Assembly: GCF_021491375.1 (NCBI RefSeq)
Contig: NZ_JAKEVY010000001.1
Span: 682,001-746,000 of the forward strand
Direction: 5' to 3'
DNA length: 64,000 nt
Source: Flavihumibacter fluminis
GTDB lineage: Bacteria > Bacteroidota > Bacteroidia > Chitinophagales > Chitinophagaceae
Shown here: positions 7,742-15,962 of the stretch, piece after piece
Position numbering within the stretch: position 1 is the stretch's first letter
How the letters are laid out: every line of letters begins with the position of its first letter
Notes under the pieces: model-generated
Seen by the model: the letters and a program-made list of their open reading frames with translations, nothing else
Told to the model about the DNA's origin: nothing
Database searches by the model: none
Position numbers and translations under genes: made by a program

Positions 7742-8737
7742 TTATGGGAGGACCCGGGAAATTTGTCCCGATTGAATCATCAGGTCCGCCAGCACAATAG
7801 CAGTCACTGCTTCCAAAACAACCGGCACGCGAAGCGCTATGCAGAGATCATGCCTTCCTTTCACAGAAAAAGTTTCCTGCTCACCGGTCTCCCAGTTCAG
7901 CGTCAACTGTTCTTTTGGAGTAGAAGAAGTTGGCTTGATGGCTATCCTGAATATTAATTCGTTTCCATTGGTAATGCCTCCAACAATTCCCCCAGCATGA
8001 TTGGTTCGGGTTTTACCTTTGGAATCCTCAATAGCATCGTTGTGTTCAACGCCAAACATCCGTGCAGCAGCAAATCCGGTTCCGAATTCAATACCACGCA
8101 CCGCAGGTATGGCAAATACGGCATGACTGATCAGGGATTCTACCGAATCAAAAAAGGGTTCACCCAGACCAATGGGTAATCCACTAACCCTGCATTCCAC
8201 GATTCCTCCTATGGAATCCTTGGCATCAATCGCTTTTTGCAAACCTTTCTCCAGGTCAGCTTCTCCCCCGATCTCAAGAATGGTGGCTGCTACAGTGATG
8301 GGATTCAGCATTTTTTTTGCTACCACCCCTGCCGCAACAAGTCCAACTGTAAGTCGGCCACTGAAATGACCACCACCCCGAAAATCTTCAAAGCCGCCGA
8401 ATTTTTTATGGGCTACAAAATCAGCGTGACCAGGCCTTGGTACAGCACGCTGCTTTTCATAATCCCCGGAACGGGTATTTTTATTTTCAAACAAGATGGT
8501 CAGGGGCGCACCGGTTGCCTTACCATTAAAAAGTCCGGTTTGAAAGAGTGGCAGATCATCTTCCTTTCGGGGAGTGGTGCCTTTTTGTGTGCCGCCTTTC
8601 CTGCGTTCAATATCAATATGAAAATCTTCCAGTGCAAGTGGCAGGCCGGATGGAACACCGTCAATGATCACACCTACAGCCGGACCATGAGATTCCCCTA
8701 CAATGGATACCCGAAAATTACGTCCGAATGAATTCAT
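7742..8737 (-). CDS. aroC: Chorismate synthase
   Basis: A 331-residue enzyme catalysing the FMN-dependent removal of phosphate from EPSP to give chorismate. Family signatures are GESHGPAVGVIIDG near residues 15-28, RPGHADF, FEDFRGGGHFSGR and the late SSTPKEQ. At 331 residues it is slightly shorter than the usual 350-360. It overlaps aroA by four bases (ATGA), so the two are translationally coupled. It is the last dedicated gene of the aromatic cluster. Confidence 0.96.
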   Translation of the reverse strand: MNSFGRNFRVSIVGESHGPAVGVIIDGVPSGLPLALEDFHIDIERRKGGTQKGTTPRKEDDLPLFQTGLFNGKATGAPLTILFENKNTRSGDYEKQRAVPRPGHADFVAHKKFGGFEDFRGGGHFSGRLTVGLVAAGVVAKKMLNPITVAATILEIGGEADLEKGLQKAIDAKDSIGGIVECRVSGLPIGLGEPFFDSVESLISHAVFAIPAVRGIEFGTGFAAARMFGVEHNDAIEDSKGKTRTNHAGGIVGGITNGNELIFRIAIKPTSSTPKEQLTLNWETGEQETFSVKGRHDLCIALRVPVVLEAVTAIVLADLMIQSGQISRVLP

Positions 8738-10008
8738 GCTTCTTGGTTTAGTTTGGCTCCCAATGAACGGATATGTTCATAAAAATCGGGATAGGATTTA
8801 TTGATGGCTTCCGCTTTTTCGATGTTGGTGCTGCCATCCGCTTTTAAGGCTGCCACGGCACAGGCCATTGCAATGCGATGATCATGATGCGAATGCACCT
8901 TCGCACCGGTCAGTCCGTTTCCTCCCTTAATCAGCATCAGGTCGTCCTGCAATTCAATCGAAAGTCCCATTTTGCCGAATTCCTCCTGCAGGGTCAGCGC
9001 GCGATTACTTTCCTTGTGCGTGAGCCTGCCAACCCCTTCAATTACCGTGGTGCCTTCACAATAGGCGGCCAGCGCTACAAGCGGAGGAAATAAATCCGGA
9101 CAATCAGTCGCATTGAAATGAAATGCTTTCATCGGCACCGGACGAATGGTGATCTGTTCCGGTTCAATACTGATGCCGGCACCACAACTCATCAATGCCT
9201 GCAGGATAGCTTTATCCGCCTGCGTTGAAAAAACATCCAGCCCCTTAATAATCGTTTCACCTGCAATTGCTGCTGCTACCAGTAAAAAGGCTCCCCCACT
9301 CCAGTCGCCTTCTACTGTGTAAGTTCGACTATCCGTTACTGTTGGGCGATTACCAGTAAAATAAAAGCTTTCATAGTTGTTATTCTGCGGCACTTCCAAC
9401 CCAAAGTCTTCCATCACTTTGAGCGTGAGGTCGACATATGGTTTACTTTTTAAATTAGTTACCGTTATGGTTACATCTTTTGCCCCAGATGCAGCATAAG
9501 CCAGGAGAATTCCAGTCAGAAACTGTGAGCTGAGTGATCCGTCGATGGTGATATTACCGGGTTTAACCGGACCTTTCACAACCAATGGCAATTTGCCCTG
9601 TTGCGATTGAACCGACACCTGCAGTTGAGGCAATACTTCATCAAAAAAATCCATGGGACGTGTTACCAGGCTTCCTTCACCGGTGATGGTAATCGCCTGC
9701 TCATTCAACGCCACCAGTGGTGTAAACATCCGGATACCAAGGCCACTTTCACCGCAATGAACGGTAGTAGAACGGGCATGGATACCCGAAGAACGGATGA
9801 TCAGTTCATTCTCTTTCTGTTCAATAGCCGCGCCCAATGCCTGGATTACGCCCAAAGCAGCTTTGTCGTCATTTGATTTTCCGGGATTGCGGATGATGCT
9901 GGTGCCACCGGCAGCAATCGCTGCCGCACAGGCGCGCTGCATGGAGCTTTTGGAGGCAGGTGCCCAGATTTCACCCTTTATGGAAGAAGGTTCTACCGTA
10001 ACTACCAT
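8734..10008 (-). CDS. aroA: 3-phosphoshikimate 1-carboxyvinyltransferase (EPSP synthase)
   Basis: A 424-residue enzyme that joins shikimate-3-phosphate to phosphoenolpyruvate. The two-domain inverted repeat fold is recognisable from PASKSSMQRACA at the N-terminus, the CGESGLGIRM active-site loop near 84-93, SLSSQFLTG, and the C-terminal HDHRIAMA. The CGESGLGIRM loop differs from the common NAGTAxR form, as it does in many Bacteroidota. That loop lies near the phosphoenolpyruvate and glyphosate site. It lies nine bases after aroB and overlaps aroC. Confidence 0.96.
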   Translation of the reverse strand: MVVTVEPSSIKGEIWAPASKSSMQRACAAAIAAGGTSIIRNPGKSNDDKAALGVIQALGAAIEQKENELIIRSSGIHARSTTVHCGESGLGIRMFTPLVALNEQAITITGEGSLVTRPMDFFDEVLPQLQVSVQSQQGKLPLVVKGPVKPGNITIDGSLSSQFLTGILLAYAASGAKDVTITVTNLKSKPYVDLTLKVMEDFGLEVPQNNNYESFYFTGNRPTVTDSRTYTVEGDWSGGAFLLVAAAIAGETIIKGLDVFSTQADKAILQALMSCGAGISIEPEQITIRPVPMKAFHFNATDCPDLFPPLVALAAYCEGTTVIEGVGRLTHKESNRALTLQEEFGKMGLSIELQDDLMLIKGGNGLTGAKVHSHHDHRIAMACAVAALKADGSTNIEKAEAINKSYPDFYEHIRSLGAKLNQEA

Positions 10009-10017
10009 TATGCTGTA

Positions 10018-11037
10018 TTATATCTGTTCTATTAATTGTTTAACCTGCGTCAATGGAAGCGTATGAACAACTCCCTTTCCGATTTTTTGCAGCAGGATAT
10101 AATGAAGATTGGAGCGCTCTCTTTTTTTGTCGTGTTTCAACACATCAAAAACTTTGGTTCGATCGAAATCAGCATAGGTCGGTAACCCATACTGATCAAT
10201 CAGCTTCACCAACGCAGTCGCCTGCTTAAATCCGAGCAATGCTTCTGATAAATGTGCCGCATAGGTCATACCAATAGAAACCGCCTGTCCGTGAGACAAT
10301 TCATACTGATTCTCCAGGGCGTGCCCGAGGGTATGTCCGAAATTCAGCAGTTTGCGATCACCCTGTTCGGTTTCATCGAGCTGCACCACTTTTGTTTTTA
10401 ACAGGGCATTCCTTCGAACCAGGGCAGCAAGCTCCGATTTCTTTTTCTGATACCAGGCGGCATCATGTTCCTTTAAACTGCGAAACATGGCTGCATCCTT
10501 GATAGCTGCATGTTTAATGATCTCCGCAAACCCGTTTTGCCATTCGGCTGTTGGCAGGGTTTGAAGCAGACTGGTATCAAAAAACAGGAAGGAAGGTTGT
10601 CTGATAGTACCTACCAGATTCTTGTAAACCTCCACATCCACGCCGTTTTTGCCACCAATAGAAGCATCCACCATGGCCAGCAGACTGGTTGGAATAAAAC
10701 CGGTTCGGATCCCACGCATGTAAATCGCGCCCACATATCCTGCAAGATCAGTTATTACACCTCCTCCCAGGCCAATTAGGGTGGTTTTTCGGTCGGCTTC
10801 CATCTCAATGAGCGAATCAATCACAGTATCCGCTGTTTGCTGGATCTTGTATTCTTCACCAGCTTTGATGACAATGGTATTCCAGCCTTTCAACTTTGAT
10901 TTACAAGCTTCAAATACATGTTCATCAGTGAGGATGATACTATGTTTTTTATCGGCAACATTTTTCAGTTGGGATAAACTCGCACCAAAATAATAGTCGG
11001 TGATGGTTTGTCCGATCCGGATTTTTTTTATTTCCAT
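10018..11037 (-). CDS. aroB: 3-dehydroquinate synthase
   Basis: A 339-residue NAD-dependent enzyme converting DAHP to 3-dehydroquinate. Seen motifs include the nucleotide-binding GGGVITDLAGYVGAIYMRG segment (about 93-111), IPTSLLAMVDASIGGKNGVD, and the metal ligands in GFAEIIKHA and NFGHTLGHALE. The length fits the family. It lies nine bases downstream of the DAHP synthase/chorismate mutase gene, consistent with one operon. Confidence 0.96.
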   Translation of the reverse strand: MEIKKIRIGQTITDYYFGASLSQLKNVADKKHSIILTDEHVFEACKSKLKGWNTIVIKAGEEYKIQQTADTVIDSLIEMEADRKTTLIGLGGGVITDLAGYVGAIYMRGIRTGFIPTSLLAMVDASIGGKNGVDVEVYKNLVGTIRQPSFLFFDTSLLQTLPTAEWQNGFAEIIKHAAIKDAAMFRSLKEHDAAWYQKKKSELAALVRRNALLKTKVVQLDETEQGDRKLLNFGHTLGHALENQYELSHGQAVSIGMTYAAHLSEALLGFKQATALVKLIDQYGLPTYADFDRTKVFDVLKHDKKRERSNLHYILLQKIGKGVVHTLPLTQVKQLIEQI

Positions 11038-11046
11038 GCGCCCTGC

Positions 11047-12138
11047 TTAGCTGTTCATGATTTTGTTCTGGTGGTTGATGGACTCCATATGCACCGCATC
11101 AAAGTAACGGGTGATGAATTCCTTGCTCAATCCCAGTTTATCGCCTTTCAGGAAGGCACGATCCAGGATTTCATTCCAGCGATTGGTTTGCAGGATGGTG
11201 ATATTGTTATTCTTTTTGTAAGTACCGATTTGTTCAGCCACTTTCATACGTTGTCCCAGTATCTGCATCAGTTCATCATCGAGGTGATTGATCTGCTGGC
11301 GAAGTTTTTCAAGTGCCGCATGATAGGCTTCGGAATCCACATCTTCTCTTCTCCAGGTAATGCTGTCAAGCATTTCTGCGAGACGGGCGGGGGTTACCTG
11401 CTGCTTGGCATCGCTCCAGGCATTATCAGGATCAATATGGCTTTCGATGATCATGCCGTCGTAATCAAGGTCAATAGCTTTCTGCATCACATCCAGCAGG
11501 ATATCTCTTCTGCCGCAGATATGGGAAGGATCATTGATCATCATCATTTCCGGGAAGCGGCGTTTCATTTCGATTGCCAGATGCCACATCGGTGCATTTC
11601 GGAATTCTGTATTTCCATATGAAGAGAAACCGCGATGGATCAAACCAATCTGGTTGATACCGGCTTTCGCAACACGTTCAACCGCGCCGAGCCACAGTTC
11701 AAGATCAGGATTGATAGGGTTCTTGATCAGTACTGGCACATCCACTCCTTTAAGCGCATCGGCTACTTCCTGCACACTGAAGGGGTTTACGGTGGTTCGG
11801 GCACCAATCCACAAAACATCCACGTCGAAGTGCAGCGCATCTTCCACCTGCTTGGCTGTAGCTACTTCCACTGCAACCGGCATCCCGGTGAGCTTTTTAG
11901 CCTGCTGTAACCAGGGTAGCCCTTTGGTACCGATACCTTCAAAAGAACCCGGACGTGTACGTGGTTTCCAGATACCGGCTCTCATGATATCTACCTTACC
12001 GGTCTGTGCCAGCTGCTGGGCAGTTTGTAATACCTGCTCTTCGGTTTCTGCGCTGCAGGGACCCGCGATGATCAATGGGCGCTTGGCCCATGCTTCCTGT
12101 GTTACCTGTTTCATTGTTTTGTTGTCGGTTGCTTGCAT
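11047..12138 (-). CDS. Bifunctional DAHP synthase / chorismate mutase (type II)
   Basis: A 363-residue fusion. The N-terminal 255 residues form a class I-beta-type DAHP synthase (IIAGPCSAE, MRAGIWKPRTRPGSFEG, HRGFSSYG, DPSHICGRRD). A linker leads to an AroQ-type chorismate mutase near 270-350 (HAALEKLRQQINHLDDELMQ, then KVAEQIGTYKK). It performs the first committed step of the pathway and the branch-point step towards prephenate. In such fusions the mutase domain often senses prephenate or chorismate for feedback; that is family knowledge and not shown here. A heptad repeat array and about 100 bp separate it from tyrA. Confidence 0.94.
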   Translation of the reverse strand: MQATDNKTMKQVTQEAWAKRPLIIAGPCSAETEEQVLQTAQQLAQTGKVDIMRAGIWKPRTRPGSFEGIGTKGLPWLQQAKKLTGMPVAVEVATAKQVEDALHFDVDVLWIGARTTVNPFSVQEVADALKGVDVPVLIKNPINPDLELWLGAVERVAKAGINQIGLIHRGFSSYGNTEFRNAPMWHLAIEMKRRFPEMMMINDPSHICGRRDILLDVMQKAIDLDYDGMIIESHIDPDNAWSDAKQQVTPARLAEMLDSITWRREDVDSEAYHAALEKLRQQINHLDDELMQILGQRMKVAEQIGTYKKNNNITILQTNRWNEILDRAFLKGDKLGLSKEFITRYFDAVHMESINHQNKIMNS

Positions 12139-12180: not shown

Positions 12181-12243
12181 CTTCCATCCCCCATCTTCCA
12201 TTCCTCCCTCTTCCATTCTCACTTCTCACGTCTCACGTTTCAC
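12181..12243 (-). repeat. 7-bp-period purine-rich array at the 3' end of tyrA
   Basis: Read on the minus strand, degenerate heptads follow each other: AGTGAAA, CGTGAGA, CGTGAGA, AGTGAGA, ATGGAAG, AGGGAGG, AATGGAA. The tyrA stop codon TGA lies inside the first unit. Related arrays occur near 13119, 19383, 19501, 19681, 20943 and 41056. Confidence 0.75.
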
Positions 12244-13088
12244 TTAATTATCCTGCTAATCCTGTTCGCATTCTCTATCAATTCCTGCAAATACGCATAG
12301 TTCTCTTTCTCCAGGCAGGCTTTGAATTTGCGTAGCTGTGTAATATGTTCATTGAGCACATCGAGCACATTCTCGCGGTTTTGCATAAAGATAGGAACCC
12401 ACATAGAGGGATTGGATTTAGCCAGGCGTACGGTACTCTCAAAACCACCACTCGCCAGTTCAAAAATCGCCTGGTCTTCTCTTTCTTTCTCCAATACGGT
12501 ATTGGCGAGCGCGAAGGAAGTAATATGGGAAATATGACTCACATAGGCAGCATGCAGATCGTGATCATGTGCATTCATTTCCAGCAGGTGCATGCCAATT
12601 TTCTGAAAAGCATTTTTTACCCAGCTAACAGCATCCGCATCACTTTCTGCGGCGTTGCACAATACGACAGCCTTATTTTCAAATGCATGTTTTACAGCGG
12701 CGGCAGGGCCGCTGTATTCCGTACCCCACATCGGATGTGAAGCTACATATCGCCCTCTACGGGGATGTTCTTTCACTGCATCAATCAATTGCCCCTTGGT
12801 AGATCCGGCATCCAGCACAATCTGATGGCTAACGCGGTCCAGCACTTTGGGCAACAATCCTGTCATTTTATCAACGGGAATGCAGAGGATAACGACATCC
12901 GATTCTTCAATTGCCTGCTCCAGCGGCAACACTTCGTCCACCAATCCCATTTCCAGCGCTTTTGCTGCGTGATCCGGATTGGCTTCCACACCAACAATAC
13001 CGGCCGCCAGGCCTTTTTCATTTAACTGCAATGCCAGCGATCCGCCAATCAGCCCCACTCCAACTATTGCAATTCGTTTTCGTTCCAT
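12240..13088 (-). CDS. tyrA: Prephenate dehydrogenase
   Basis: A 282-residue NAD(P)-dependent enzyme converting prephenate to 4-hydroxyphenylpyruvate for tyrosine. It shows the Rossmann motif VGVGLIGGSLA (9-19), the HPMWGTEYSG segment near 118-127, and the helical dimerisation half (HDLHAAYVSHISH). No ACT domain is present. It is the third gene of the aromatic operon. Its stop codon is supplied by the first unit of a heptad repeat array. A pyrimidine-rich stretch of about 80 bp separates it from the aminotransferase gene upstream. Confidence 0.93.
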   Translation of the reverse strand: MERKRIAIVGVGLIGGSLALQLNEKGLAAGIVGVEANPDHAAKALEMGLVDEVLPLEQAIEESDVVILCIPVDKMTGLLPKVLDRVSHQIVLDAGSTKGQLIDAVKEHPRRGRYVASHPMWGTEYSGPAAAVKHAFENKAVVLCNAAESDADAVSWVKNAFQKIGMHLLEMNAHDHDLHAAYVSHISHITSFALANTVLEKEREDQAIFELASGGFESTVRLAKSNPSMWVPIFMQNRENVLDVLNEHITQLRKFKACLEKENYAYLQELIENANRISRIIK

Positions 13089-13118: not shown

Positions 13119-13193
13119 GTCTCCCCTGTCTCCCTTCTCCTCCGTCTCCTTTGTCTCCCGCCTCCATTCCCTCACCCCTTCTTCCATCCTCCG
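13119..13193 (-). repeat. Purine-rich low-complexity array at the 3' end of the aminotransferase gene
   Basis: On the minus strand the stretch reads as G/A-rich units such as GGATGGAAGAAGGGG and repeated GGAGAC, less regular than the other arrays. It overlaps the last codons of the aminotransferase (tail GGWKKG) and supplies its TGA stop. Confidence 0.6.
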
Positions 13194-14353
13194 GAATTTT
13201 TCCTTACCCGTTCCATCGCTTCTTTCAATTTCTCCTCCGGACTGCAAAGACTCACCCGAATAAATCCATTACCTGCTGAACCGAAGATGCCGCCCGGCGT
13301 AATGAATACATTTGCGCCATAGAGGATCGCATCACTCATTTCAAAACCATCTTTATATTGGTCAGGAATTTTTGCCCAAACGAACATGCCTACCTGTTCC
13401 GGATTATACGTTGCGTTCAATTCATCAAGTAATTCAAATACCAGTTTCCTCCGCCGGCGATATACATCATTTACAGATGCATACCAATCAGCTCCCAGTT
13501 GCAAAGCTTTTGCAGCAGCCAACTGAGCAGGCAAAAACATACCGCTGTCCATATTGCTTTTGAAGCGGATCACTTCATCAATGCGATCCTTCGCACCTGC
13601 CAGCATACCAATTCTCCAGCCTGCCATATTCTGGCTTTTACTGAGTGAGTTCAATTCTACCACTACTTCCATCGCACCAGGTACAGCCAGCAAACTAGAT
13701 GGCTGATCATTCAGAATAAAACTATAGGGATTATCATGACAGATCAGGATCTGATGTTTTTTGGCAAATGCAATCAGGCGTGCATAAAAGGCCGCCGATG
13801 GAACCTGCCCGGTTGGCATATGCGGATAATTCACCCACATCAGTTTCACCTTACTCAGATCCGTTTTATCCAGCGCATCCAAATCCGGCTCCCAGTTTAA
13901 GGCTTCCACCAGTTCATACGAAACCGGTTCTCCACCCGCCAGTTTCACGGCACTGCTGTATGTTGGATAACCCGGGTTGGGAATCAACGCCTGATCTCCC
14001 GTATTCAGATAAGTCATGCAGATATGCATAATCCCCTCCTTGCTTCCGATCAATGGCAGGATTTCGGTTTCCGGATTCAAATCCACCCCATACCAGGTAG
14101 CATACCAATCGGCCATTGCCTTGCGCAATACAGGCGATCCCTTATAGCTCTGGTAAGCGTGTACATTGGGTTTTGCGGCTTCTTCCTGAAGGGTTTTTAT
14201 CACATCGGGATGTGGCGGTAAATCCGGACTTCCAATACCCAAATTGATAATCGCCTTGCCCTCTTTATTAAGCGCATCAATCTCGCGAAGCTTCTGAGAA
14301 AAATAATATTCTCCAATGCCATTCAGTCGGTCTGCGGTTTTCAGCTGCATCAT
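13172..14353 (-). CDS. PLP-dependent class I/II aminotransferase (probably aromatic)
   Basis: A 393-residue fold-type I aminotransferase with the PLP-lysine motif SLSKSQNMAGWR near 235-246, the DNPY segment, and the C-terminal substrate Arg in IRVSL. Placed between pheA and tyrA, it probably transaminates phenylpyruvate and 4-hydroxyphenylpyruvate (or prephenate). The specificity is inferred from context. Its ATG overlaps the pheA stop by four bases. The last residues (GGWKKG) come from the purine-rich repeat that begins inside the gene, which suggests a repeat-driven change of the C-terminus. Confidence 0.9.
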   Translation of the reverse strand: MMQLKTADRLNGIGEYYFSQKLREIDALNKEGKAIINLGIGSPDLPPHPDVIKTLQEEAAKPNVHAYQSYKGSPVLRKAMADWYATWYGVDLNPETEILPLIGSKEGIMHICMTYLNTGDQALIPNPGYPTYSSAVKLAGGEPVSYELVEALNWEPDLDALDKTDLSKVKLMWVNYPHMPTGQVPSAAFYARLIAFAKKHQILICHDNPYSFILNDQPSSLLAVPGAMEVVVELNSLSKSQNMAGWRIGMLAGAKDRIDEVIRFKSNMDSGMFLPAQLAAAKALQLGADWYASVNDVYRRRRKLVFELLDELNATYNPEQVGMFVWAKIPDQYKDGFEMSDAILYGANVFITPGGIFGSAGNGFIRVSLCSPEEKLKEAMERVRKNSGGWKKG

Positions 14354-15177
14354 TGCTTACCATTTTTATAAATTCCATAAACCTGCAAACTCACGGTCAG
14401 CGGTTCGATTTCTTTTATTACTCCCTGGAACTGTTCCAGGCTGTCGAATTCCATATCCGCATGGAAACTGTATTGCCAGTCGCTGCCAGGAATCGGAAAA
14501 CTCTGCAACTTGCTCAAATTGATTCCTCCTTCCGCAATTCTGGTCAATACTTTCGCAAGGCTTCCCCTTGAGTGATCGGTATGAAAATTAACCGAAGCTT
14601 TGTTGGCATCCGTAATCTCCTGCACCATATCCCTTCTTTGAAGAATGAGAAAGCGGGTATAGTTGTTTTTCATCGTGTGGATATTCGGAGCCAGCACTTC
14701 GAGATCAAACAGATCTGCCGCCAGTTTACTGGCAATAGCTGCTGCATGTTTATTGTGCTTCTGGTGAATATGTTTGGCACTGAGGGCAGTATCCTCTGTT
14801 TCCACGAGTTTCCAGTTGAACTTCTCCAGGTAATCGATGCATTGCAGAATGGCCATCGGATGTGAATGCACTTCCCGGATGTCTTCCAGTTTTACACCGG
14901 GATTTACCAGCAGGTTCTGTTTAATCTGGAGATACACTTCGCCTACCACCTGCAGGTTACTTTTCTGTAATAAATTATAGTTGGGAAGTATGCTGCCCGC
15001 GATGGAATTCTCAATTGCCATTACTCCGCCTTCGCTTTCTTTTTTACTGGATGCAATTTTAACTACCTCGCGGAAGGTATCGCAGGGAATGACTTCAACA
15101 TCCTTGCCGAAAAATTGCTGGGCTGCCACCTGGTGGAAGCTGCCTTCATAACCCTGTATGGATACTCTTGTTGCCAT
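14350..15177 (-). CDS. pheA: Prephenate dehydratase with ACT domain
   Basis: A monofunctional prephenate dehydratase of 275 residues. The catalytic region is about 1-180, with GYEGSFHQ, ENSIAGSI and the NNYTRFLIL motif that contains the conserved Thr-Arg-Phe. A C-terminal ACT domain (about 190-270) with the RGSLAKVL segment should bind phenylalanine for feedback inhibition. I start it at the ATG at 15177, not the TTG nine bases earlier, which lies in a T-tract. The ATG directly follows a terminator hairpin, and a Phe/Tyr-rich leader peptide lies upstream. It is the first structural gene of the seven-gene aromatic operon. Confidence 0.95.
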   Translation of the reverse strand: MATRVSIQGYEGSFHQVAAQQFFGKDVEVIPCDTFREVVKIASSKKESEGGVMAIENSIAGSILPNYNLLQKSNLQVVGEVYLQIKQNLLVNPGVKLEDIREVHSHPMAILQCIDYLEKFNWKLVETEDTALSAKHIHQKHNKHAAAIASKLAADLFDLEVLAPNIHTMKNNYTRFLILQRRDMVQEITDANKASVNFHTDHSRGSLAKVLTRIAEGGINLSKLQSFPIPGSDWQYSFHADMEFDSLEQFQGVIKEIEPLTVSLQVYGIYKNGKQ

Positions 15178-15212
15178 AAAAAACAAGAGTCCCGGGCTTT
15201 CGCCGGGACTCT
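15178..15212 (-). terminator. Attenuator terminator before pheA
   Basis: On the minus strand AGAGTCCCGG (15212-15203) pairs perfectly with CCGGGACTCT (15195-15186) across a seven-base loop. It is followed by TGTTTTTT running up to the pheA ATG. This is a strong Rho-independent terminator located inside the operon leader, 21 bases after the stop codon of a Phe/Tyr-rich leader peptide. The arrangement is that of transcription attenuation. A competing antiterminator is less clear: GCCGG (15267-15263) could pair with CCGGC (15206-15202). Confidence 0.82.
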
Positions 15213-15233
15213 TTATGTTTAGTTTTAGTGATC

Positions 15234-15329
15234 TTAATTCGCTGATCTAACACAAAGCATCGCCGGCCTTCTGCCTGTAAAAAAGTAGAAGTAAAAATAA
15301 AATCGGCCAAATGCATTTGCTGTGATCAT
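15234..15329 (-). CDS. Phe/Tyr-rich leader peptide of the aromatic operon
   Basis: A 31-codon open frame (ATG at 15329, TAA at 15236-15234) containing AFGRFYFYFYFFTG. Nine of residues 7-17 are Phe or Tyr, eight of them in an unbroken run (codons at about 15302-15279). Ribosomes would stall on this run when charged tRNA-Phe or tRNA-Tyr is scarce. The role parallels the pheL leader peptide of enterobacteria, though there is no obvious sequence homology beyond the Phe run. The downstream terminator ends exactly at pheA. No convincing -7/-33 promoter was found directly upstream, so transcription may begin further left of the leader (higher coordinate) or read in from the gene at 15399. There is no Trp codon, arguing for Phe/Tyr rather than Trp control. 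Confidence 0.82.
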   Translation of the reverse strand: MITANAFGRFYFYFYFFTGRRPAMLCVRSAN

Positions 15330-15398
15330 GAAGTAAAAATATACAATGATTGAATACAACAAAAAAGTTTTTTCCTTACGAATGTTAGTTAAACCGCC

Positions 15399-15962
15399 TC
15401 ATTGCAGGCGTTTCATCTGTTGTTCATCCATTTTCCGGAAAAGGTGAAAAGGTTTAAACGTACGCCAGTTATCCAGCTCCACCAGCTCTATTATCCGTTG
15501 TAATTTAGATTTCCGGAAATCATACTGTGTTTGTTCCGGCATATTTAATAAGACAGCCCATCCGTTTTCATCCACCATCTCCTCGTACCACTCTTCATAG
15601 TAATCGCGGTCTCCGGAATGATAGTTCAACACATTTTCAGCAATGAAGATGAACTTATGAATGCCTGCTTCCTGGAACTTGTCAATCACCTCCCTTTTAA
15701 GTTGCATGATGTCATTCTCAATGGCATCATTCCATTCACCCAGCAGTTCAATGATAGCGTACTGTTCTTCGTAATCTGCCAGGATGACTTTCAGATAGAG
15801 GGTTCTAGATCCAAACTCATCCCACTGGGGATGGATATAGAAATTATAAATGGTTTGGGAATATTCAAACTCAGAATAAACGCGCCCGTAAAAAGGTGAT
15901 CGCTCATCTTCTTCGCTCACATAGATATGACGCCAGTTGTAAAATGGTTCAATTTCGTGCAC
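15399..15962 (-). CDS. Conserved-looking acidic protein of unknown function
   Basis: A 187-residue soluble protein, rich in Glu/Asp and aromatic residues, with no signal peptide or membrane segment. I do not recognise the family. It opens with HEIEPFYNWRHIYVSEEDER and contains a hydrophobic strand (KFIFIAEN, near residue 103) followed by an acidic patch (YYEEWYEEMVDENG). The start is GTG at 15962, since no ATG precedes the conserved-looking N-terminus. It lies 32 bp downstream of murQ on the same strand and 70 bp upstream of the Phe/Tyr leader gene, so its transcript might run into the attenuator region. Confidence 0.75.
   Translation of the reverse strand: MHEIEPFYNWRHIYVSEEDERSPFYGRVYSEFEYSQTIYNFYIHPQWDEFGSRTLYLKVILADYEEQYAIIELLGEWNDAIENDIMQLKREVIDKFQEAGIHKFIFIAENVLNYHSGDRDYYEEWYEEMVDENGWAVLLNMPEQTQYDFRKSKLQRIIELVELDNWRTFKPFHLFRKMDEQQMKRLQ

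Follow-up and report, generated by a model that had tools for sequence, protein, structure and literature searches.

In the enterobacterial pheL and trpL leaders (Rfam Phe_leader, RF01859, and its relatives), a short ORF with codons for the end product precedes alternative protector, antiterminator and terminator helices, and the terminator lies before the first gene. The known pheL leaders sense Phe alone, and in classical attenuators the switch is decided during transcription.

This kind of attenuator is already known, and elements at homologous sites in the phylum Bacteroidota were noted earlier. In 2010, the authors of one study knew of leader-peptide systems demonstrated in Proteobacteria and Actinobacteria only (PMC2965389). 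A putative attenuator had been listed in 2005 before the Bacteroides thetaiotaomicron genes pheA > hisHb > aroAIbeta-aroQ > tyrA (PMC1173090, Table 7), an operon of the same phylum homologous to the one described here, but the listing is database-derived and, as far as it goes, describes no leader peptide. Long 5' UTRs of B. thetaiotaomicron were reported to contain short ORFs reminiscent of leader peptides (PMC7366714), and short uORFs with Phe and Tyr near genes of shikimate metabolism, comparable with the leader described below, were proposed as candidate regulators among five genomes (PMC6429828, Fig. 6 legend). In Flavobacterium psychrophilum, a structured element 5' of pheA, which has no Rfam match and recurs in further genera of that family, was reported in 2021 together with strong clues for leader-peptide attenuation before amino-acid operons (PMC9723704). 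It precedes the same gene in the same phylum and is likely the same element as here; its description, as far as it goes, names neither sensor codons nor alternative helices for pheA. In the literature searched, which covered few subscription journals, we found brief mentions only and no account of a mixed Phe/Tyr leader with alternative helices in Chitinophagaceae.

The stretch of DNA analysed here (the window; 64,000 nucleotides) comes from a genome of 4.71 Mb in 41 contigs, and its features are collected in Table 1. The initial annotation had proposed a 31-codon frame with nine Phe/Tyr in residues 7–17 upstream of pheA, which was confirmed by translation (F7 and F10-Y11-F12-Y13-F14-Y15-F16-F17). 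The GC-rich hairpin that it placed behind the frame was also present, but it comprised 11 pairs instead of 10, and the short gap after the leader stop codon was 20 nt, not 21 as claimed. The T-tract was found to end exactly at the pheA start codon (ATG at 15177), as had been described. Profile searches with Pfam and NCBIfam returned the proposed gene order of pheA, aminotransferase, tyrA, DAHPS-CM, aroB, aroA and aroC, with neighbouring genes overlapping by 4 bp or separated by gaps of 9 to ∼100 bp. Directly upstream of the leader lies a codirectional ORF of 187 aa (15399–15962, minus strand), which is separated by 69 nt from the leader ATG and had no match to Pfam or NCBIfam profiles at E 0.001.

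Table 1. Coordinates of the leader, its RNA elements and the genes of the operon within the window.
Feature	Position	Strand	Basis or description
Possible -33 element TTG of a Bacteroidota-type promoter	15360-15362	minus	motif match; 18 nt before the -7 box
Possible -7 box TATTTTTA	15334-15341	minus	motif match; TAnnTTTG with one mismatch
Leader peptide ORF	15329-15234	minus	31 codons plus stop; ATG at 15329; peptide MITANAFGRFYFYFYFFTGRRPAMLCVRSAN
Segment 1 (∼codons 4-9), pairs with segment 2 as protector	15304-15320	minus	partner swap, pair counts, folding
Sensor codons 10-17 (FYFYFYFF), expected ribosome stall site	15279-15302	minus	sequence comparison
Segment 2 GGCCGGCGATGCTTTGTGTTAGATCA, pairs with 1 or 3	15243-15268	minus	partner swap, pair counts, folding
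Segment 3 (linker CTAAACATAAAG and terminator 5' arm), pairs with 2 or 4	15201-15222	minus	partner swap, pair counts, folding
Intrinsic terminator hairpin (3:4) AAGAGTCCCGG-CGAAAGC-CCGGGACTCTT	15213-15185	minus	11 pairs, 7 of them G-C
T-tract GTTTTTT, abutting the pheA start codon	15184-15178	minus	sequence
pheA, prephenate dehydratase	14350-15177	minus	Pfam and NCBIfam
Class I/II aminotransferase	13172-14353	minus	Pfam and NCBIfam
tyrA, prephenate dehydrogenase	12240-13088	minus	Pfam and NCBIfam
DAHP synthase fused to chorismate mutase (DAHPS-CM)	11047-12138	minus	Pfam and NCBIfam
aroB, 3-dehydroquinate synthase	10018-11037	minus	Pfam and NCBIfam
aroA, EPSP synthase	8734-10008	minus	Pfam and NCBIfam
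aroC, chorismate synthase	7742-8737	minus	Pfam and NCBIfam

From the sequence evidence, the locus is best read as a trpL/pheL-type attenuator in which the ribosome controls transcription through a mixed Phe/Tyr sensor, a reading to which we assign a probability of roughly 0.88. The logic would be that of pheL and trpL, but three differences were observed. There is no recognisable sequence kinship, RF01859 scoring 19.2 bits where the gathering score is 55; the sensor is mixed for Phe and Tyr, and the operon spans chorismate synthesis and both terminal branches; and the ORF begins at, or a few nucleotides from, the predicted transcript start. An Rfam scan of the window gave no family at threshold, and a known Rfam element, a T-box or a riboswitch was ruled out, the scores of Phe_leader (19.2 of 55 bits) and Leu_leader (15.8 of 50 bits) being far below threshold.

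For comparison with relatives, the best 80 of 196 pheA relatives were taken, and one of them with only 48 nt of upstream sequence (L027) was dropped, leaving 79; loci L082–L111 entered no count. The initial annotation had suggested that the upstream regions of relatives be compared, and the same arrangement was found upstream of pheA in the window and in all 79 assessable relatives (from the best 80 of 196): a short ORF containing a dense run of Phe/Tyr, with a GC-rich hairpin and a T-rich tail behind it. For two of the 79 (L044 and L060) the leader was set by separate reading, the first terminator finder having given no result there. The 79 relatives contain near-identical strains, and 66 non-redundant leaders, the window included, were obtained from the best 80 of 196. 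The window's pheA protein was 99% identical to those of two Flavihumibacter records (L002 and L003). It was also 98% identical to that of a locus titled Flavipsychrobacter sp. MAG (L004, JAEUVF010000013.1), whose genus label may be wrong. The aminotransferase gene followed pheA in 80/80 loci of the best 80 of 196 relatives; tyrA was also present in 76/80 and the DAHPS gene in 42/80, the fetched DNA ending early in some loci.

Across the leaders of these 79 relatives (of the best 80 of 196), the distance from stop codon to terminator was 14–43 nt, and that from the terminator end to the pheA match, measured to the start of the protein match, was 7–189 nt. Only some species therefore have the terminator close to the pheA start, and a role of the hairpin in controlling pheA translation is not conserved.

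Chance was ruled out as the origin of the ORF and terminator by this conservation, by shuffled sequences and by the other upstream regions of the window. At least seven Phe/Tyr in 10 residues together with a terminator were found in 77/80 pheA upstreams (330 nt each; the window and 79 from the best 80 of 196), compared with 0/800 dinucleotide shuffles; when the terminator was not demanded, the shuffles reached 2/800. Among the upstreams of the 78 mechanically called ORFs of at least 100 aa in the window, the sole match was that of pheA. The same results bear on the idea that the hairpin is a constitutive terminator of the upstream 187-aa gene and the Phe/Tyr ORF a product of chance. That gene (15399–15962) indeed has the same direction, and its end lies 69 nt upstream of the leader ATG, but the absence of such an arrangement from 800 shuffles, its presence in 79/79 relatives (of the best 80 of 196) and the covarying alternative structure described below make this explanation exceedingly improbable.

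The composition of the leaders is consistent with a joint sensor, in which a given position may be Phe or Tyr while both are always represented. At least three Phe and at least two Tyr, and an adjacent FY or YF pair, were present in 80/80 leaders (the window and 79 from the best 80 of 196), and across the leaders each of the two amino acids was encoded by both of its codons. When runs of equal length were compared pairwise without further alignment, F/Y swaps were the commonest amino-acid change (1074/2041), and 882 differences were synonymous. A single-amino-acid attenuator, for example one for Phe, in which the other residue is merely tolerated since the codons of Phe and Tyr are alike, would agree with the Phe-only response of known pheL leaders and with the excess of Phe in the peptides of the 79 relatives from the best 80 of 196 (437 Phe, 307 Tyr and 11 Trp). 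It is nevertheless improbable, given the constant presence of both residues in adjacent pairs, the lead of F/Y swaps among the amino-acid differences of the run and the fact that the operon makes both Phe and Tyr. The proposal of the initial annotation that one mixed Phe/Tyr sensor controls the whole operon fits the counts in the 80 leaders (from the best 80 of 196), and an operon beginning with aroF, described below, is headed likewise. Its view that the alternating Phe-Tyr run is unusual, on the other hand, has to be toned down, because uORFs with Phe and Tyr (PMC6429828) and pheA attenuators or elements in Bacteroidota (PMC1173090, PMC9723704) had been reported before.

Neither an antiterminator nor a protector had been noted in the initial annotation; both were found here and co-vary, the protector being the least convincing. 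Segment 2, which directly follows the Phe/Tyr run and has the consensus GGCCGGGAAUGCUUUUGUUGA, has two possible partners: segment 1 (AACAAAAGCA), located where the ORF begins, or segment 3, composed of UCAACAUAAAG and the terminator 5' arm UCCCGGCC. Three mutually exclusive helices, namely the 1:2 protector (the weakest), the 2:3 antiterminator and the 3:4 terminator, co-vary in the 66 non-redundant leaders. In the partner-swap test, pairing of segments within the same leader was compared with pairing between species in these 66 leaders (from the best 80 of 196) with 5000 permutations. The energies of own and between-species pairs were −24.1 and −20.7 kcal/mol for 2:3 (0/5000 permutations as good), −21.4 and −17.9 kcal/mol for 3:4 (0/5000), and −10.25 and −9.40 kcal/mol for 1:2 (1/5000). 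The control pairings 1:3 (951/5000), 2:4 (483/5000) and 1:4 (4805/5000) were not significant.

Pair counts supported 2:3 and 3:4 strongly and 1:2 less so. In 2:3, 87.4% of the cells were paired and 39 cells were changed on both sides, as illustrated by the column pair 83:113 (G-C in 37, A-U in 13 and U-A in 3 leaders), whereas 94.1% were paired in 3:4 with 30 double-change cells, and 79.4% in 1:2 with 19. The covariation score of each helix exceeded those of all 500 shuffles and of all slid versions. The number of further pair types in 2:3 did not beat the shuffles (78/500). For 1:2, the pairs with double changes were not above the shuffles (6 versus 5.3; 230/500), three slid versions held more double-change cells (22, 23 and 26 versus 19), and the helix was weak or missing in some relatives (L013 and L081).

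It was observed that segment 2 is read in a different frame in 7/66 leaders, which indicates that conservation acts at the RNA level and not at the peptide level. This bears on whether the leader peptide itself arrests the ribosome, as in TnaC- or Erm-like systems, sensing free Phe/Tyr or another ligand through the sequence of the nascent chain. The conserved short ORF close to the terminator and the frequent PGMLLL-like C-terminal residues would be in line with such an arrest peptide. However, the order of F and Y varies among the leaders, the nucleotides of segment 2 are kept where the frame is not, and no conserved arrest sequence like those of TnaC/Erm leaders was seen among the compared leaders, in which both run order and C-terminal frame vary. 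We thus consider an arrest peptide very improbable and retain attenuation by ribosome position as the preferred reading.

The leaders were also folded with modelled ribosome positions. When the ribosome was placed in the middle of the run and the nascent RNA extended as far as the terminator loop, 62/66 leaders formed at least 14 antiterminator pairs, compared with 202/1320 (15%) when segment 2 was shuffled, and the mean energy of the nascent fold was −21.7 versus −9.6 with segment 2 shuffled. A first measure with a cut-off of 6 antiterminator pairs was reached by 66/66 leaders and also by 817/1320 shuffles (62%), so that only the longer helix is informative; it was too lax and was replaced by the cut-off of at least 14 after the shuffle control. 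Placing the ribosome at the stop codon gave the terminator in 66/66. Without ribosome, the terminator was present in 65/66 and the protector in 62/66, and some antiterminator pairing was seen in 8/66.

For nascent RNA, these models give the geometry of an attenuator, in that a ribosome in the run would free segment 2 and a ribosome at the stop codon would block it, while equilibrium folding of the full leader was mixed. With a stalled ribosome on the full leader, the minimum-energy fold contained at least 6 antiterminator pairs in 44/66 leaders and terminator pairs in 50/66, some leaders having both; antiterminator pairs outnumbered terminator pairs in just 20/66, and the window's own leader folded into the terminator. 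If the proposed mechanism holds, this mixed equilibrium implies that the switch must be decided during transcription, with the antiterminator forming first.

A mechanism can be proposed as follows. RNA polymerase would begin transcription at the leader ATG or immediately upstream of it, and the nascent RNA would be engaged by a ribosome. When charged tRNA-Phe and tRNA-Tyr are plentiful, the ribosome would pass the Phe/Tyr codons and reach the stop codon, where it would cover segment 2, or segment 2 would stay paired with segment 1; the 3:4 terminator would then form and transcription would end before pheA. When either charged tRNA is scarce, the ribosome would stall in the run and mask segment 1, which a ribosome stalled early in the run would cover. 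Segment 2 would then be free to pair with the linker and the terminator 5' arm, and the resulting 2:3 helix would block the terminator, allowing transcription of the seven-gene operon, from DAHP synthase through both terminal branches. Attenuation in an operon of a major phylum is thereby given a concrete model at the level of sequence, with a leader that matches no Rfam family. According to this model, a single leader would respond to two amino acids and so set the flux through the pathway, from the first step of the shikimate route to both end products.

A standard sigma-70 scan found nothing before the leader, and the Bacteroidota motif was used instead. In addition to the candidate -7 box of the window listed in Table 1, an equally scoring candidate, TATATTTT, was found 2 nt further upstream of TATTTTTA; these candidates would place the transcription start at, or no more than 2 nt from, the leader ATG. 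A perfect TAnnTTTG was the best match within 45 nt before the leader ATG in 64/80 leaders (from the best 80 of 196), compared with 6.5% of shuffles, and it ended 4–10 nt before the ATG in 57 of these 64. With one-mismatch boxes counted too, the number rose to 72/80 (from the best 80 of 196); a box with one mismatch, the type seen in the window and in its closest relatives, was the best match in 55% of shuffles.

The TAnnTTTG box of F. psychrophilum is reported to span −12 to −5 (PMC9723704), from which a 5' UTR of 0–6 nt is predicted across the leaders. For the window, the motif match weakly suggests a 5' UTR of 0–2 nt. The leader ORF thus probably lies on a nearly leaderless mRNA with the start as predicted. 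Such starts would be unusual, since leaderless transcripts are given as just 5.5% of the mapped mRNAs of F. psychrophilum, with a median 5' UTR of 24 nt, in the account of PMC9723704. The same source describes translation initiation in these bacteria as not reliant on Shine-Dalgarno signals. If the leaderless start is true, the locus would offer a direct test bed for transcription-translation coupling and for leaderless initiation.

In a sample of the class Bacteroidia, 50/178 genomes, that of the window included, had a prephenate dehydratase match. Of the remaining 49 pheA genes, 31 had, within ∼520 nt upstream, an ORF starting with ATG and carrying six or more Phe/Tyr/Trp in 10 residues (five or more in 35), and the terminator finder detected a terminator behind 25 of the 31 leaders and none behind 6. 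Two of the 49 pheA genes were from the window's family, and both had the leader. In the family f13, 6/6 sampled pheA genes (L165, L166, L172, L173, L183 and L192) were without an aromatic leader in the stretch read. Outside the class, 1/19 pheA upstreams had at least six aromatic residues in 10; these 19 were hand-chosen from 77 genomes with a match, and one comprised only 352 nt. Two of the 14 pheA genes without leader belonged to one genus with the operon order aroF-aroB-aroA-pheA-aminotransferase, and there a Phe/Tyr leader and a hairpin were found before aroF, indicating that the sensor is linked to the first position of the operon rather than to pheA itself. At these loci (genus g176, family f16), the leader MLITAAIYFTFFYFYFRSQ... 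lies at 465 of the reverse complement in L226 and at 541 in L227.

A covariance model of the element gave matches in 71/395 genomes of the class. The 30 best loci comprised 29 that contain pheA and the one aroF-first operon. Two matches in a relative without pheA match (G031) were terminator-like stretches with no Phe/Tyr leader. The model therefore also catches ordinary terminators, and the class-wide matches were not counted as leaders. Seven weak matches elsewhere in the window's genome (E 0.014–0.88) lay at places where no similarity to pheA, the aminotransferase, tyrA or DAHPS was detected.

Leaders of other amino-acid operons were seen in the same genome. The upstream of hisG (L112, contig C11) contains the leader MKRNSNIHHHHVLLPAR with HHHH and a strong terminator just before hisG, which is likely a His attenuator; that of trpE (L150, contig C11) contains MTKNIQTIQWWWHTNSSGVL with WWW and a terminator, likely a Trp attenuator; and that of ilvD (L151, contig C21) contains MNNVTITSIIRLFAAVIIVVVVIIPVITGGGNSM with an Ile/Val run and a strong terminator, likely an Ile/Val attenuator. 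Upstream of a thrA-like aspartokinase gene (L153, contig C21), the leader MAFISTYTTTTTTITTR with a Thr run was followed by a hairpin of GGGCC-TTC-GGGC type and a T run; this hairpin was chosen by eye, the finder having picked a different one. Neither of two genes of lysC type, nor a second ilvD-like gene, showed a leader with corresponding amino acids (a fourth aspartokinase match, below threshold, L156, was left out). Pairing like 2:3 was better than in shuffles for trp and ilv (0/300 each), moderately so for his (15/300) and no better for thr (116/300).

The his, trp, ilv and thr leaders support attenuation as a general strategy of this organism. It can be put forward, at about even odds, that amino-acid synthesis in Bacteroidia is run by classical attenuators (here for Phe/Tyr, His, Trp, Ile/Val and perhaps Thr), with leader ORFs at or a few nucleotides from the 5' end of the transcript and with the Phe/Tyr leader reading both amino acids as one signal. 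If so, ribosomes would engage nascent RNA that is leaderless or almost so, and would do this without a Shine-Dalgarno sequence; this would imply tight transcription-translation coupling in the phylum. Boxes similar to that before the Phe/Tyr leader were observed 8 and 7 nt before the ATG of the his and trp leaders of the same genome, respectively, that of trp with one mismatch.
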